This document shows positions 27,462-37,060 of a DNA stretch of 64,000 bases, piece after piece. Position 1 is the stretch's first letter. Each line of letters begins with the position of its first letter. The notes beneath the pieces were generated by a model. The model searched no databases. It was not told the DNA's origin and saw nothing but the letters and a program-made list of their open reading frames with translations. Source of the DNA: Pilatotrama ljubarskyi (taxonomy: Eukaryota > Basidiomycota > Agaricomycetes > Polyporales > Polyporaceae); assembly GCA_022385805.1 (NCBI GenBank), contig MU277709.1:134640-198639 (forward strand), given 5' to 3'. The position numbers were made by a program, and so were the translations under genes.

Positions 27462-27467
27462 GGAACG
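27462..27467. repeat. Target-site duplication, left copy (GGAACG)
   Basis: GGAACG directly abuts the left terminus (TACGGTTGCC) of the inverted-repeat unit. An identical hexamer abuts the right terminus at 35961-35966. Confidence 0.8.
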
Positions 27468-27870
27468 TACGGTTGCCGAGCAGGCTCAGCTTGTCACTCG
27501 CACCCGTCGACCGTCGACCGTCGGCCAGCGGTCTCGAATGTTGATGCGAGCGGCTCTTCTCAGCTTTTCCGAGCCTATTTGTACATGTTTGTACCGACCG
27601 CTCCGGGTCGCTTGATCATGAGACTCTCGTCACTCCGACCAACCACGTCTTCCACTCTGGCTGAGCTCAGGTTTTCCGGAAAAGGGCCCAAAAATCCAAA
27701 GCATTGCATGAGCCCGCCATGGTGCGTCAGCGCTAGCATCGGAGTTGTTGCGCTCGAATTTGAGGGCGGCGTCGTGTGCTACCATATTAGGAAACGTGCC
27801 GGTAGCAGGCAGAACGCCCAAAGCGGTAATACGCGTGGCCGAGACGCGCATACCGTATACGTTGTACGCC
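27468..27870 (+). repeat. Left terminal inverted repeat of the 8.5-kb element
   Basis: Bases 27468-27845 are an exact reverse complement of 35583-35960. The first mismatch (C against T) is at 27846, followed by a 7-bp indel near 27852; similarity then ends at about 27870. Inside, 27504-27524 carries three tandem CCGTCGA-type heptamers, also present in the right copy, which could be enzyme-binding sites. The open frame running through the repeat is not a gene. Confidence 0.92.
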
Positions 27871-28419
27871 GCGGGGCAAGTACGGCGTGTGCATGCTGTT
27901 CATCCTGCTTCAACTCCTGAAAGTCTTTCCTCCTGCTGCATTGTTGTCTAACGATCTCACGTCCAGTATTCCGGCTGCTGCTGTACCATTACATCTTTCG
28001 GATGAGTTACCCAGTTTCTGGGAGACAACGGGAGCCTCACACTCCAGGGGAAGTTAAGGGCCTGCACGGGCACGACAGGTGAGCAATTCTGCACGAAGTT
28101 CAAGGGCCCCTTAGCGATGTTGATACCACCTCTGCCAACCTCGAGTATCTCAGCGCCTCTGTATCTCCTGGCATTGCTGTTCAGGCTGATCACGGCCTGC
28201 TCTGTCAAAGCGACGGCATTGTTGGCCCTCTGGCGTAGGTCCACTCATCCCAGCATACGTGCGCATCTCATCGCTGTCTGCAGTTCTGCAACTATCCATG
28301 CAGGGATCTCTTCGAGCAGGCGAGAGAGCAAGATCTGCCGCCTGCACGATCCACCCTCCCTCCTGATCCCAGCGCCCCATTCTTTGGCAACTCACAACTC
28401 CAGAGGCGTGTCGACCACG
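27871..28419. other. Unassigned DNA inside the element
   Basis: A minus-strand open frame at 27957-28244 encodes 95 residues with no recognised motif. No promoter or repeat is identifiable. It may be captured or decayed sequence. Confidence 0.35.
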
Positions 28420-29783
28420 GCCACGACGATGTACAGAAGCCCCCTTACACGATCGCGAACACTGCGGGCAGAGGGCATTGTCAGAGAAGACGGCCTAAGT
28501 CAGTACCCTTTAGTCAATATCGTCACAGCGGCGCAAGTGCTTACAACGAATTCCCTAGACGGATGCCATCCACACCAACAGCCTGATCGAGCACGACACC
28601 CATAACCTGTACGGCACGATGATGTCGACGGCAACGCACAACGCGATGCTGGCACGCAGCCCAGGGCAGCGCACGCTCGTCATCACGCGCTCCACGTTTG
28701 CAGGCGCAGGCACGCGCGTCGGCAAGTGGCTCGGCGACAACTTCAGCCAGTGGGACCATCTCCAGCAGTCCCTCTCCGGCATTCTCGGAATGGCGGGCGT
28801 GTACCACGTTCCGATGGTCGGCGCAGACATCTGCGGATACGGTGCGTGCATCGTTTTGTCACCCTGGGTCCAGGGAGGCAGGATCGGGCCCTGACTGCTG
28901 CGCCAGCGGAGAACATGACGGAGGCGCTCATGGTGGGCGCGTTCTATCCATTCATGGGCAACGTAGGTCCAATCTCTGTTTGCCCGCCCACCCGCACTGA
29001 TCACCACCAAAAATGCGCAGCATAATGCGGACATGTCTATCAGCCAGGAGTTCCACCGCTGGCCGACTGTCGCGCAGACGGCGCGCAATGCGCTCGACAT
29101 CCGCTACCGCCTTCCACCAGGCGCACGTCGACGGGACGCCCGTGCTCAACCCGCCCTGGTACAAGTTCCCGCAGGATGCGAACACGTTCCGGATGGACAC
29201 GCAGTTCTTCTACAGCGACTCGATCCTTGTCTCGCCCGTGCTCGAGGAGAATGCGACGAGCGTGGATGCGTACTACCCCGACAAGGTGTTCTACGACTTC
29301 CACGACCTCGTGCGGAGGTACGTCAAGGGCGGCGGCGTGGTGCACCTCTCGGACGTCAACTTCACGTCCATTCCGGTCGCGGTCAAGGGTGGCGCCGTCC
29401 TGCCCCTCCGCCAGAAGAGTGCGATGACGACGACGGAGCTGCGCAAGAACAACTTCGAGCTTGTCGTCGCCCCTGCCCTGGACGGGACTGCGTCGGGCTC
29501 GCTGTACCTCGACGACAGCGTCTCCATCACCCCGAAGACCAAGAGGAGCATGTCGTTCGCGTTCAAGAACAAGAAGCTTACCGTCAAGGGGACCTTTGGT
29601 CATCCCACGGGCGTGGACGTCGCCCACGTGAGATTCGCGGGCGTGAACAGCGCACCGCATACTGTGAAGGTTCACGGGAAGGCAGTTGGGAAGGCCGCCT
29701 TTGCGTACGACTCTGAGAAGGGCGTCGTGGACGTGACGTTGAAGACTCCGTTCAACAAGGGTTTCAGTGTGGAGTACCAATGA
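28420..29783 (+). pseudogene. GH31 alpha-glucosidase, truncated and frameshifted relic
   Basis: Only the C-terminal half of a GH31 enzyme can be read. Matching parts in order are PPYTIAN (28440), [42 protein letters not shown] (with the acid/base Asp of GDN), GAFYPFMGN, SISQEFHRWPTVAQ, ALDIRYRL, then AFHQAHVDGTPVLN, FFYSDSILVSPV and the beta-sandwich tail to a stop at 29783. The N-terminal half, including the nucleophile motif (WxDMNE), is absent. After GADICGY the conserved TTETLCARW segment is missing and the usual RNH is GNH. At about 29108 the reading frame shifts: family knowledge predicts a LDYFYT segment that is lost between two CCGCCTT-like words, consistent with a 23-nt deletion. Functional enzymes of this family hydrolyse terminal alpha-glucosides; this copy cannot. 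It lies inside the mobile element. Confidence 0.85.
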
Positions 29784-30035
29784 GCACATTCTTACCTGTA
29801 GTTCAGACGTTTGGAATGCATGGGCACCTTTCGAGCTAGTACAGCGCTCCGAGGTGTCGGCGACGCCTGAGGGGACTTCAATACAAAGCCCAGCATGGGC
29901 GTCTCACTCTTTGCTCTGTCGCACTCTTTGCTCGTCACACTCTTTGCTCGTCATCTCTACCTGCACCGATGGCCACAATCATCTTGCTGCCCTTGTGACT
30001 CCCCTACTGGCATATCTGACTCGCTGAACTCCACC

Positions 30036-31748
30036 ATGAAATCTGAAGAGTTTCTTGAGGGCAGTACTAGTGACGACATCCCCTCAGATGTCCCAGAGGA
30101 CTCGGCTGGTACCAACACGAAGAAATACCATGCACCAAACCCGTCTGGTAGAAACCAGTATATTGACTGTCGTATGTTCTCATGTGCTCCCTTACATGGA
30201 GGCGTACATTCTCACCATGCTTACGGAATGGATAGCATCTAAGGATGATCCTCGTGTGGAAGAGGCATTGAGGGACTACCATCGTCGTAACATCACGGAC
30301 AAGAGGATAATCAGCAAGCTACTATGGGCTGAACATAAAATCAAGATGTCGTGCGTTGTCACGCCATACACTTCCTGCTGTAGGGAAAGCTGATTGTCTT
30401 CCTCTCGCTAGTGCTTCGACCGTTACGAGGCGCCGCAAGGACCTTGGCTTGAAAGGCAGTGGCGCGAACACCAAAGAGCTGCCTGACTGCGAGAAGCGTC
30501 AGCTCATTCTTGACCAGATGGCTAAGAACCCCACACGGGGCATCGGTCCAAGACGCATGAAGGAGAAGATTGCTGAGGAGACGGGGCAACATTTAACACG
30601 GTGCGTGTCTTGCTTCAAACTTGTAGAACGTTGACTGGTATGAACATGTCACAGAGACTATATCTCGAAGGAAATGCATCTGCAGGACCCCGAAGGCTTC
30701 AAGGTACGGCATCCAACAAGTAAGAAGAAGTTCCGCCTTGCGCTCGTCACACTTGGTCCCGACTATGAGTGGAGTTGTGATGGGCACGATAAGCTGGCAA
30801 GCATCGGCTTTCCTGTATGGGGTATACGTGATGTTTGGAGCGGGCGGTGGTTAGGCTTATGGGTGGTGCCCAACAATCGTTTGAAGGTGACGGTCGCATA
30901 CCTGTATCTGAGTCTTCTGCATCGACTTGGCGGTGAGTGAGCCAGTGCAAGGTTCATTCTGGCATTCTGTGCTCAACGGTGATACATGCTCAAAGGTATG
31001 CCTGTTCAGACGACGACAGACTGTGGTAGTGAGACTGGGGCTGTCTATGGATTTGCGAATATGTTACGGTAAGATATAGGGCAATGATGGGGATTGAGAT
31101 GACTGCAGTGGCTGACTGTTGGCAACACGATGCGTTGTCTTTACAGACAGGAATTTGCACCGAACCTTCCGATATCTGAGCTGCCTGCCCATCGCTTTCT
31201 GCGCAGCATTGAGAACACCACAATTGAGCGTGGCTGGCTCCGTCTCCGGCTGGAATGGGGCAACGATGTCAGGCTCTTTTGGGATGCTGGACAGGATATC
31301 TACGATGAGAATAACTCAGACCACTAGTACGTGCACCAGATAGCATGGCGATGGCCATGATATTAGCTTGCTCATATTCCTTTATAGCAATCTATGTCGT
31401 TGGTTATGGCCAAAGCTCATCCAGCAAGAGCTCGACAAGCTTCGGGACAGCCTGAACAACCACAAGCCTCGCCGCGATAAGTCAAAGCTCAACCCAACAG
31501 GTGTCGCTCCAAACGTAGCCTATGCGCTGTGCCACGAGTATGGTGCTCAGAGGTGCCTTCAGCCTGTTGACCGTGAACTGATTGCTCAGCTCATGGAAGA
31601 CCTTGGAGGCGAAGAATTGATCCGCTTTGTGAGCGCTGAGTACAGCACTCGAGCTGCGAACGTGTACGAGAAGCTCGGCATTCAGGAGTTGACCTTTGAG
31701 AATGTCTGGGACGTCTTCTCTAGTATGTTACCACATATGTATGAGTGA
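30036..31748 (+). CDS. DDE integrase-core protein, candidate transposase
   Basis: Seven exons, 30036-30171, 30236-30350, 30412-30600, 30655-30932, 30996-31068, 31147-31326 and 31388-31748, encode 443 residues in one consistent frame. Residues of about 35-130 contain NPSGRNQY and a DNA-binding-like helical region (ALRDYHRRNITDKRIISKLL, then STVTRRRKDLGL). The catalytic core has the DDE pattern: D189 in SCDGHDKL, D248 in TTTDCGSETG and E291 in ENTTIERGW, embedded in GFPVWGIRDVWSGRWLGLW. This is the putative integrase-core family widespread in Agaricomycetes and related to retroviral-type integrases. It lies within an element with matching TIRs, so it probably cuts and joins those ends; that assignment is inference. 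It converges on the alpha-kinase gene, with 189 bp between the stop codons. The final exon could end slightly differently if a GTATGT at 31721 is a donor. Confidence 0.85.
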
Positions 31749-31937
31749 TGCATATAAATCAGGAATTATAGTTTCTCGCATGGCCATGCTGCATAGTACC
31801 AAGTTACCTACCAAAGCAGTGATGCCACCATGGACCATACTAGTCCGAGTCGGTCATAGCCATGGGATAAAATACGACTCAGTTCACCGTGATACAGAAT
31901 GTATGGGTAAAATACTACTACGATTTGTGCTAGAAAA

Positions 31938-34694
31938 TCAGTCAATATGGATGATATCCTTCACCTCAAGCCTCCGACGCTTGGGGTCAGGTACTGCATC
32001 CTTGATACCGGCATTAAGGGTCGAAGCTATAGGTGCCTTACGGCGGGTGCCAGCTCGAGCGGCTTTCTTGCCCTCAGAGACGAGCCCGAGTTCACGACAG
32101 AATGCATTACACCTGTGTTGAGAGATGAACGTGTTGATGCCGTTCTCTCCGCCATCCCAAGGACCGGTCTGGATGTCGCCCGGCCAGCCGCTACAATGAG
32201 ATATGAACATAGTAAGCATATGATAACCAGAACTTGGGAAGTTTCCTACATACACCGTGTGTGCTTGAGGATCTATGAATATCGCCTCATTATTCTTAAC
32301 AAATCCTATGTACAATATGAGACATTCGCCAAGGGTTAGAGAACGTCGCACTCACCCTGCAGGTCCACAAACACACAGGTATGATCTGAGTCGACTAGCA
32401 CATGATGTGCAAATGCGTCGACAGTCTGGCCCAGTACAGAATCATCATTGTCCCCGATCTCAAACGTTCCCGAAAATTTGTGCTCCTTGTAGCCCTCTGA
32501 CTGCCGGATGAGCGGAGAAGCAAGAAGGGTTCGATAAAGCAGCGCACGGCTCTCTATGGTATCTTCACTGCCAGACGCCTCATGAGAAGGGAGATTGCTC
32601 TCACTGATCTCACCAATGAACGCGCCTGCGTGATTGAAGCGAATTCCTGCGCGAGGACACCACGTTAGAGGGGATACAATCAGCAACCAACTGTTGCGAG
32701 GGTAAGAGAACCAGAACTCACTGGCAAGCCTAGATTCAATGCCATACTCGCGAGCCCGGCGATAGAAGGAATCAACAAAGAACTGGCCGAGCGCGAGGAG
32801 TTTCAACTCTCCGTATAACATATCTCTATTCTCGCTCTCCGTGAACCTGTAGCTGCCTATCGAGTTGCCTTGAAGGACAGCATACGGCTTTCCTTGATAC
32901 ATTCCCTGGTGTCCACGATGATATAAGCATGTACAGGTGAATATTGAGCGCAGATGCACTTACCATGAAGGCGTACTTCGATGCTCCGCTCCCGAGATAA
33001 CCCCCTTCGCGCTTCTCCATGCCCTTGTACTTTTGCCAGTCCTTCGCGATCAGTATCGCCTCGTCACAGGTGTTTACGAGGCTGATCTGCGCGGTGTCGT
33101 CGGTGAAGCAGGTGACACGCCGGAATCTGAACTCGCAGTACTGAATGGGTATGGCAGAGGGAGGCCGAAAGGACGCGCAGTACTGTGATGTTAACTTGGG
33201 CGTAGTGGACGACACCGCCCTGGTTGTGGCACTACTGCGCAGCCCCTCTGGACGGGGCATCAGTCATTGCTACGTGGGTGATACATGGAAGAGAACGTAC
33301 CGGCACCAGCGAGTCTTGACTTCTTTGACTTGATGCGCGACGTAACGCTGCGAGCGGACTTCTTCGGCTTCTCTGGCAGGACATCGAGATAGACTATGTC
33401 ATCATCTGACTAGAGTGGTCCATGTGTGAAGTCAGAACGTCAGAGGTGCGGCAGCTACGAGAGAATGACCTACTGAGTTATCATCATTGCGCGTGCTACA
33501 GTATACAGTAACCTGTAGTCGGATTTGCTTCTGCGCGATGTCGTTGTCACTAAGGAGATTGAGGCGTTTGACACGTTCGAACGTTTGAACCACTGTCTCG
33601 TTGTTGATGACGTCCCGGTTTCCGAGTGCATGTCGGGCACCGCCGTTGCCACCCTTGCATATGATCCAGCTGGTGTTCGACCTGACGGGGTGTGAGGAGT
33701 GTTGAGTATGCTTGAAGCAAGGCAATCAGCGTACCTGATCCAGTCCGCATCGATGAGCGGGACGTCTGCCCGTGCTTCGGATGGCAACTCCTTGAATACC
33801 TTGTGGAGCTGATCGAGCATGTCGCTGAGTGCTTCATCTGTTGGTGTGGACGCCTTCGGCCGGCACGTAGTACAGACATTGTGGAGCTAGACATAGAGTC
33901 AGAACGGCAAACAGAGGTGTTAGTTCATGTCCGTGGATGCCAAGCTTGAACAACATAAGACACACCTTACGCGGTGGCGACCCAGCGGATAGGGCATAGT
34001 GGGCGGTGAGCTGGAATGTGATGAAATCGTACCCTCGTTGCTCCTTGAGCGCAGCCTTCTTCTCCTTGTAGTTCAGTGCCTTCTGAGATACCGCATCTGA
34101 CTTGGGGCCTTGCGTCAGACGGTGTTGAGACGCGAGCTGCTCGAACTCTCTCGCGCGGTCCTTGAGCCGCTGCAATTCCGTCGTGCCTGCTTCAATAGCT
34201 AAGTCCCATGTGCATTCCATCAAAGCGGAGGACTCACCTGATGCTTGACGAGTAGCACTCGTAGCGGACGACGGCATACCATTGTGTAGTGTCAATTCCC
34301 TCTCTTTGCAGGATCCGCATAACGGGTGCTTCAAAAATGGATAGACGCAGCCACAACCCTCGCACTGCGGCTCCCGCTATGGTCTGTGTGAGGGCAAGTA
34401 AGGAATGCTTCTTGGGATGCACGTACCTGATGTTGGTGTCTCTCCGCTTCAGAGGTGCTCTCGAGCTTCTTGCACCGCCCGCATATGCGCGTGTCCATGA
34501 ACTTGAAGCATTTCCCGCAACGTTCACACTGCTGCTGGAGACGGAGATCAGCAGATACTAATCATATAGTCCCTGAGCGGGGAGGAACTCACCTGCTCAT
34601 CTCGTGGATTGCCCTTGGACCTTGCATCACATGCTTCACAGACCCGGCCTTGTAGATTGGTGAAGAGGGAGCCACAACCACTACAGCACGGCAT
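31938..34694 (-). CDS. Alpha-type protein kinase with three N-terminal CxxC/CxxC modules
   Basis: Twelve exons (34694-34593, 34531-34427, 34376-34238, 34186-33966, 33886-33735, 33681-33513, 33409-33301, 33247-32964, 32905-32722, 32646-32356, 32305-32254, 32190-31938) give 686 residues with all phases consistent. Cysteine pairs at about 4/7-19/22, 36/39-51/54 and 74/77-89/92 form three modules with identical CxxC-x11-CxxC spacing, probably zinc-binding. A helical middle follows. The kinase domain (about 410-640) shows GGYLGSGASKYAF, YRFTESENRDMLYGELKLL, IRFNHAGAFIGEI, CVFVDLQG, FIDPQAHT and GENGINTFISQHRCNAFC, the alpha-kinase DLQG/DPQ/C-terminal zinc pattern. The tail is basic (PKRRRLE), a possible nuclear signal. 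Alpha-kinases phosphorylate Ser/Thr; substrates in mushrooms are unknown. An upstream exon starting at 34873 could add about 25 residues in frame. It is cargo of the mobile element. Confidence 0.87.
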
Positions 34695-35564
34695 TGAGAC
34701 TAGCACAAAGACACATGGAGAGCTAGTGAGCAGAGCACAGGTGACAAGATGAGGTTCACTCAGCGGTATGATAGCGGGGCAGGCAGACACCTACTGAGGT
34801 GCATCCGATACTTATTGGCACCCGTCGCGTAGCGCGGCGCCGCCAGAAGTATCCTGAAGCTCAACGGCGGCATGGCGAGCGGCAGCGGTCCGTGCAATTT
34901 GCGTGGGGTTGACCTAGAGACCCGCTCTGGCCGATCATGCCAGAAAATGAGCTCTGATATAAGACACAAAATGCCCGGTCAGCAGAGAGCATATTATCGC
35001 TGCCTGAAGCGGCACTCACCAGGGCAGGCACTTGTTACGCCAAGTTGTTCCTCCTGTTCTATGAGCAGATGAAACGCTGATTGAGGAGCGGGCCCTTTGA
35101 GGCTGTCATACGAGAGGTATGCGCAGAGTGCGGTGCGTACCGTTCGCGCTCCCTGATGTCACTAATATCTGAGTTGATGTCCGACGTGAAACAAGCGACC
35201 CGTAAGGGTCCATCTCACCAGAGATCTCGAGGATAGCGGCAGGCTCGTGTGTATGCTGGAGTGTACGTGGCCTGTGCTGACTGGCTTGAAAGATGATGCA
35301 CGAGTCTTTCAGTGCTCCTTCATGGCAACAGGCTGTAGAAACACCGGCAGGTAGATTGAGAGGAGTTGACCACTGCTTGGCATAGGCTCAAGTTACGACA
35401 AAAACCGAGTTCAAACAAACGGTTATGAACTGTGCGCCGCCACTTTTGCAAGCCTCAAGCTAAGACTTATGGGCAGGTAAAGCCTAGAATGCATGCATAC
35501 ACAGAGGGACGTTGCAGGATGAGATTGCTGCATTGTCATGAGTGGACAGGTCCAAGCTCACTCC
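34695..35564. other. Unassigned DNA between alpha-kinase gene and right TIR
   Basis: Holds the probable promoter and possible first exon (ATG at 34873) of the alpha-kinase gene. No other gene or repeat was recognised. Confidence 0.45.
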
Positions 35565-35960
35565 GGCGTACAACGTATGCACGTCTCGGCCACGCGTATT
35601 ACCGCTTTGGGCGTTCTGCCTGCTACCGGCACGTTTCCTAATATGGTAGCACACGACGCCGCCCTCAAATTCGAGCGCAACAACTCCGATGCTAGCGCTG
35701 ACGCACCATGGCGGGCTCATGCAATGCTTTGGATTTTTGGGCCCTTTTCCGGAAAACCTGAGCTCAGCCAGAGTGGAAGACGTGGTTGGTCGGAGTGACG
35801 AGAGTCTCATGATCAAGCGACCCGGAGCGGTCGGTACAAACATGTACAAATAGGCTCGGAAAAGCTGAGAAGAGCCGCTCGCATCAACATTCGAGACCGC
35901 TGGCCGACGGTCGACGGTCGACGGGTGCGAGTGACAAGCTGAGCCTGCTCGGCAACCGTA
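35565..35960 (-). repeat. Right terminal inverted repeat of the 8.5-kb element
   Basis: Reverse complement of 27468-27870; the outer 378 bp (35583-35960) are identical to the left copy. Compared with the left copy it lacks 7 bp near 35575. Confidence 0.92.
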
Positions 35961-35966
35961 GGAACG
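35961..35966. repeat. Target-site duplication, right copy (GGAACG)
   Basis: Identical to 27462-27467 and directly abuts the last base of the right TIR. Confidence 0.8.
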
Positions 35967-36286: not shown

Positions 36287-36477
36287 GACCCCCGCTCCCA
36301 CACGCCGACCGCGGTCACCAGCTAACCTCGCAGCTCCTGTTCCACTAACCCCTTTCGGCGGGGCTCGACGTCCTGTTATAATAACCCTTTGTCTTCCCTT
36401 TCCTCCACCACTACTTATTCCCGCTTCGCGACTTCGCGCGGTTCTCTTCGCGTCGCGCTCCTAATCTACCATCTACC

Positions 36478-37060
36478 ATGGATGCCAGGGTACGTACTGC
36501 ATCCACATCAGCGACCGGGCCGGACCGACATGCTAACTCCCTGTCCCGTCAACAGTACAGCCAGTCTAATAGCTCCCGGAACGATGATTCGGATGGCGAG
36601 CAGTACACTCCTCGCACGCCGCGGCGCACGCCCATGGCGTGTACGTTCTGCCGCGGTGAGTCGCCCGCCCACATTATGGGTGACGAAATGATCGCTTACG
36701 CGTCCGGAAGCGCAGGTCGCAAACTGAAATGCGACGGGCGACCTATATGTGCCAACTGCAACCGCCGTGGTCTCGCATGCTCCTACGTCCCTGTGTGAGT
36801 AACCGTGTCTCTTGAAATTGCGAGAAGGGTCCTCATGTGTCCCTGTAGCTCCGCGCAGAGCCCCAGGCAATGAGCGCGACAGCCAGAGCCGTTTGGCCCC
36901 CGAAGCCACATCTTCCTCGAATGTGCGCCTCAACGCCACCAAGTTCGTTCATTCGTCCGTTCGTCCGCTCGCCCGCCTTGCAACAGGCGCCCGTCGTTGT
37001 GCATTGCTTGCTTTGAACCTTTCGTTCTGCTGTCGCTTTCCGGACTCTTCTCTTCTCTGA
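36478..37060 (+). CDS. Short Zn2Cys6 fungal-type DNA-binding protein
   Basis: Exons 36478-36489, 36556-36655, 36716-36794 and 36859-37060 encode 130 residues. The zinc cluster begins ACTFCRGRKLKCDGRP and continues ICANCNRRGLACSY, with all six cysteines in CX2CX6CX6CX2CX6C-type spacing; the basic RGRKLKCDGR linker is the DNA-contacting part. The N-terminus is Ser/Asp-rich (YSQSNSSRNDDSDGEQY) and TPRRTP lies just before the cluster. There is no middle homology region or long activation domain, so it is far shorter than Gal4-type activators; such small cluster proteins are common in mushrooms and could be competitors or partner-dependent regulators (inference). The last 40 residues are the least certain; a further intron near 36946 is possible. 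Confidence 0.78.

Follow-up and report, generated by a model that had tools for sequence, protein, structure and literature searches.

Here, we report a well-preserved transposon of 8,493 bp at positions 27468..35960 of a 64,000-nucleotide stretch (the window) of contig MU277709.1 from Pilatotrama ljubarskyi, a wood-decay mushroom and polypore. Judging from structural features described in previous reports, this is very probably a member of the IS3EU superfamily, namely a cut-and-paste DNA transposon that looks autonomous. The element encodes an integrase-type transposase and an alpha-kinase, so that the published IS3EU design is found here in a polypore and without a detected TET/JBP gene. 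It also carries a fragment of a GH31 alpha-glucosidase gene, and therefore represents a case of host-gene capture by an IS3EU-type element. This capture is its unusual part, whereas the element type itself is known.

Ends and transposase of the element

The left terminal inverted repeat (TIR; 27468..27846, + strand), which starts with TACGG, and the right TIR (35582..35960, - strand), which ends with CCGTA, are exact reverse complements over 379 bp. An earlier reading, made without database searches (the sequence-only reading), had reported this match for 27468-27845 and 35583-35960, and the exact match proved to be one base longer. Beyond the 379 bp, the match is imperfect and continues to about position 27871 on the left side (394 nt at 99%, or 404 columns at 98% in a second alignment). 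Direct sequence comparison also confirmed that the hexamer GGAACG abuts both outer ends, with the left target-site duplication (TSD) at 27462..27467 and the right at 35961..35966. The TIR match stops at these outer ends and shows no outward extension.

We scanned the region around the integrase gene for 6-bp direct repeats abutting 16-bp inverted ends with up to 3 mismatches, and 14 pairs were found. The outer GGAACG pair was the sole TA-ended and the sole non-palindromic one. The remaining 13 pairs, each at a palindromic hexamer, lay within the TIRs, because any inverted repeat must yield such pairs. When the window was shuffled ten times in 5-base blocks, the mean number of pairs was 0. Two separate small insertions had already been considered a poor explanation of these ends, and we agree, given that a common non-palindromic hexamer is found at the outer ends only.

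We also searched the P. ljubarskyi genome assembly (33.1 Mb in 173 contigs), to which all genome searches below refer. A 601-base query containing the left TIR matched both ends of the window element only. With the 7.8-kb interior as the query, the matches besides the interior itself were a single GH31 locus and a 65-base stretch at the right TIR's inner edge. Solo TIRs elsewhere had been named as a sign that the unit is not a single transposon; near-full-length TIRs were found at the window element only, and one full copy of this element was found.

The transposase gene (30036..31748, + strand) has seven exons, at 30036-30171, 30236-30350, 30412-30600, 30655-30932, 30996-31068, 31147-31326 and 31388-31748. 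This model was picked by its splice sites from 240 frame-compatible models, and the spliced protein of 443 aa is identical (100%, full length) to the annotated protein BV20DRAFT_949050 of P. ljubarskyi. The intact DDE integrase-core protein that the sequence-only reading had described thus exists as a spliced frame. Its match to the Pfam family PF24764 (rva_4) scored 33 bits, the cut-off being 26, and D189, D248 and E291 fall in columns with at least 90% conservation in an alignment of 59 sequences, namely the transposase and 58 relatives drawn from the best 120 of 169 integrase relatives. The named relatives among the matches listed belong to species that we take to be Agaricomycetes. We scanned viral contigs and prokaryotic genomes for relatives of the transposase, and none was confirmed.

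A comparison of the predicted structure by VIA-align, run on fold candidates, points to a retroviral-integrase-type core, which we regard as a predicted feature of this protein. A sequence search against solved structures gave three matches with E values of 0.3 to 1. The first two were pieces of sigma-54 (RpoN) at profile positions 30-80, which hints at an N-terminal helix-turn-helix. An NCBIfam search gave no useful match.

The alpha-kinase gene, a second element and IS3EU features

The second gene of the element encodes an alpha-kinase (PF02816; 31938..34694, - strand) with N-terminal cysteine-pair motifs. In the annotated protein of 637 aa (P0121, BV20DRAFT_1054383), the PF02816 match scores 61.6 bits. 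Our rough splice of the gene showed 88% identity to this protein over 93% of its length, with mismatches mainly at exon joins. The annotated start lies inside the second exon of our model, and we propose a first exon at 34694-34593. The transposase and alpha-kinase genes are arranged tail to tail with 189 bases between them, and about 0.9 kb without an assigned gene separates the kinase from the right TIR. Both the alpha-kinase gene and the GH31 fragment had been overlooked in the earlier list of the contents of this element.

The PF02816 search of the genome (E values up to 0.1) gave three matches at two loci, one in the window element and the other at C57:35781-36293. This count is a lower bound: family searches of this kind miss intron-split genes, as illustrated by the PF24764 search, which omitted the window's own intron-split transposase. 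The C57 locus lies within an 11,766-bp unit (C57:32687-44452) with perfect TIRs of 63 bp, termini of TACTG..CAGTA and GTGGTG as its duplication; the unit contains a 10-base N gap. The transposase of this unit is encoded on the strand opposite to its kinase. It is a diverged relative of the window transposase, as indicated by colinear pieces with E values of 7e-10, 2.8e-7 and 1.5e-5, and, as judged by eye, the D-D-E residues are present in its equivalent motifs. The relation between the two elements is remote. No gene was assigned to the roughly 3.5 kb that separate the C57 transposase from the right end, and three open reading frames (ORFs) scanned there gave no Pfam match. One further site, C21:253748, matches the C57 ends over their first 24 bases with one mismatch, and the similarity is lost after about 30 bases.

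These structures agree well with previous descriptions of IS3EU. In the available text of Kojima and Bao 2023 (PMC10045372), IS3EU elements have TA..TA termini and usually 6-bp TSDs. In that of Kojima 2025 (PMC12730594), the TET+ IS3EU elements of rust fungi are described with 6-bp TSDs, TIRs of over 30 bp and TAYGG..CCRTA ends, and all TET+ IS3EU families, whose hosts are rust fungi and Tuber, have a TET gene between a transposase gene and an alpha-kinase gene that are oppositely oriented. The window element and the C57 element both have 6-bp TSDs (GGAACG and GTGGTG) and TIRs of over 30 bp (379 and 63 bp). The TACGG..CCGTA termini of the window element agree with both published forms, whereas TACTG..CAGTA of C57 agrees with TA..TA only. 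The transposase and alpha-kinase are oppositely oriented in the window element, and C57 is arranged alike. The window element differs from the TET+ families in having no detected TET/JBP gene, 379-bp TIRs, a GH31 fragment and a polypore host. Only 189 bases are available between its transposase and kinase for a TET/JBP gene, a feature that defines the TET+ subset only. The genome showed no PF12851 (TET/JBP) match at E 0.1 in a search that can miss intron-split genes, so this absence is weak.

We also considered other groups of DNA transposons. GingerRoot, which was grouped with IS3EU with 99% bootstrap support, resembles the window element in its 6-bp TSD, mostly TA..TA ends and integrase-type transposase, but it was characterized from clubmoss and no alpha-kinase partner is mentioned in the available text (PMC10045372). 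The same text gives TSDs of 4 bp or 4-5 bp for Ginger1 and Ginger2. Membership in either was rejected because the duplication here is 6 bp. Maverick/Polinton elements share the 6-bp TSD, long TIRs and integrase-type enzyme, but they are larger and carry DNA polymerase and capsid, ATPase and protease genes. In the stretches scanned, no polymerase, ATPase, protease or capsid gene was found. The only Pfam matches above cut-off within the element, in a search of sequence pieces, spliced proteins and part of the ORFs, were GH31, rva_4 and alpha-kinase, and less than 2 kb between the TIRs is without an assigned gene. Therefore, a Polinton was rejected, as in the sequence-only reading, and the single integrase-driven transposon of that reading, with its long TIRs and duplication of 6 bp, is supported. 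Its further suggestion of a separate, possibly undescribed family did not hold, given that the element has the published structural features of fungal TET+ IS3EU. IS3EU repeats have been reported in the genome of Ganoderma leucocontextum, in the available text of PMC8955403, so that IS3EU in polypores is not new; IS3EU is not mentioned in the main text of PMC10799480, as far as this was available.

In a cut-and-paste process, the transposase would bind the TACGG ends and excise the element, and joining to the target with a 6-bp stagger, followed by host fill-in, would produce the 6-bp duplication. We argue that the alpha-kinase belongs to the element rather than riding along by chance, because it is paired with the transposase in two diverged elements, in the TET+ IS3EU families and putatively in Trametes coccinea, in which relatives of both proteins are putatively on the same contig. 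The presence of a transposase and an alpha-kinase without a detected TET/JBP gene in a polypore element suggests that the standing partner in IS3EU is the kinase and not the dioxygenase. As a guess, the alpha-kinase might act as a standing accessory of fungal IS3EU, and its phosphorylation of the transposase or of a host factor might aid transposition or escape from silencing. Both alpha-kinase loci found in the genome (two of two, with the same lower bound) are inside IS3EU-type elements. We therefore tentatively propose, at somewhat less than even confidence, that polypore alpha-kinases are IS3EU cargo and not a host kinase family, and that IS3EU is a gene-capturing, kinase-bearing lineage of mushroom transposons. 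The element is also a caution that alpha-kinases of mushroom genomes that are tallied as host kinases may in fact belong to transposons. Among the papers listed on alpha-kinases and transposons in Agaricomycetes or Basidiomycota, nothing on this pairing was seen beyond Kojima 2025, which was also the only work found to join IS3EU and alpha-kinase.

The captured GH31 fragment and the age of the element

To the right of the left TIR, the element contains the 3' part of a GH31 alpha-glucosidase gene, which is frameshifted (28225..29784, + strand; PF21365, E 1.6e-21). This 1.56-kb fragment aligned with C8:24090-25689 at 85% DNA identity over 1,612 columns. The alignment is unbroken across the presumed introns and stops just past the stop codon. 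The 5' part of the gene is missing from the fragment, and a gap of 23 bases lies in its C-terminal coding region, along with other indels (9 gaps with 64 gap columns in total); it is not a working gene. Pack-type DNA transposons and Helitrons also capture host genes, and the window element resembles them in having a host gene fragment aboard, but here the carrier is IS3EU-like and has its own intact transposase. The GH31 piece would have been acquired within this fungal lineage by an ancestral form of the element, and at the DNA level, because the introns are kept. The pickup perhaps occurred through template switching during gap repair, and the piece would now be a dead passenger.

At the protein level, the fragment matched the genome's own gene at 275 of 314 aligned residues (87.6%), and the best of 35 other-species proteins, which were taken from the best 120 of 1,598, reached 78.7%. 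In a 16-row tree, the fragment and the C8 gene were joined with support of 90/96, a value below the program's starred threshold, and the branch of the captured copy (0.12) was longer than that of the C8 gene (0.021). Pairwise comparison of the two gave a dN of 0.066 and a dS of 0.267. We rejected neutral decay since departure from the C8 gene, because this dN is too low relative to dS for a pure pseudogene. This suggests that part of the divergence arose under constraint, probably before capture, and the donor may therefore be a lost paralogue or a diverged allele. We also counted 40 changes from CpG in the C8 gene to TpG or CpA in the fragment and 16 in the reverse direction. This loss of CpG would fit cytosine methylation of the element in the past.

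The sequence-only reading had called the element young. The ends are indeed identical: 0 differences in 379 positions set a bound of about 0.8% on TIR divergence (rule of three, by hand). The inner fragment, however, is 15% diverged in DNA from the nearest relative found. Because the captured fragment is far more diverged than the TIRs, perfect TIRs are no proof of recent arrival; their identity dates the last time that the two ends were homogenized and leaves the arrival of the element undated. Thus, the element has probably been resident in this fungal lineage for a long time.

Alternative explanations and related loci

Several observations weigh against the IS3EU assignment and the role of the kinase. 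Concerning the assignment, an integrase-type core does not single out IS3EU, and the assignment is based on published structural features. The C57 termini do not fit TAYGG. The C57 kinase scores 29.7 bits for PF02816, the matched stretch includes one in-frame TGA that may mark an intron, and a profile of the window kinase did not detect this kinase. The linkage in T. coccinea is putative and indirectly read, and two of the four alpha-kinase matches (both Suillus) had no same-contig partner among the 120 integrase relatives listed. Transposition itself is inferred from structure: one full copy was found, and a search of the assembly with the joined flanks found no empty site, in an assembly that may hold one haplotype.

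Three further loci have rva_4 matches over the cut-off (C101:78572-79133, C34:236764-237349 and C15:430402-431096; 66-69% DNA identity where aligned), and none had a TA-ended TIR/TSD pair within 5.1-9.8 kb per side, which also weighs on this side. C101 showed one pair without TA ends (69281-82245, 3 mismatches), and ten shuffles of C101 gave a mean of 0.0 pairs; shuffles of C15 gave a mean of 0.4. No TA-ended pair was found near a weak rva_4 locus on C49, and weaker matches occur on C17, C169 and C129. A gene of the rva_4 family therefore need not lie in a visible transposon, and the C101, C34 and C15 loci may represent genes that were domesticated, elements in decay or elements whose ends are of another kind.

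Among the alternatives, a recent horizontal transfer of the element into P. ljubarskyi, GH31 piece included, would agree with the single copy and the identical TIRs. It seems improbable to us, since the GH31 piece is closest to the genome's own gene (87.6% versus 78.7%) and forms a clade with it (90/96). Slightly less credible still is a separate integrase-driven superfamily that converged on 6-bp duplications and TA ends. The modest rva_4 match and TIRs that are very long in comparison with the 63 bp of the C57 element would favour it, but the window element shares several published IS3EU features, including the unusual oppositely oriented alpha-kinase. That a host locus with an integrase-derived gene and an alpha-kinase came to lie by accident between two inverted non-autonomous copies is very unlikely, even with other rva_4 genes lacking visible TIRs, given the common non-palindromic hexamer at the outer ends only, the finding of no other near-full-length TIR in the genome and the second element of the same build on C57.

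Apart from the IS3EU assignment, about 25 terminal bases of the window TIR are matched at C11:379579 and C117:59909, with 2 and 3 mismatches in 23, and a control search with the reversed pattern gave 0 matches. These two sites also share some internal similarity with each other, and the C11 site follows a poly-C run. No partner end was found for either; C117 reaches the contig end, and the C11 region searched contains 7,733 N. They are perhaps the ends of another related family. In the flanking DNA, an ORF at 36385-36798, whose start is some 0.4 kb beyond the element's right end, matched Zn2Cys6 weakly (Zn_clus; 20.1 bits, with the cut-off at 21), and the insertion may therefore lie close to the promoter of a regulator gene.
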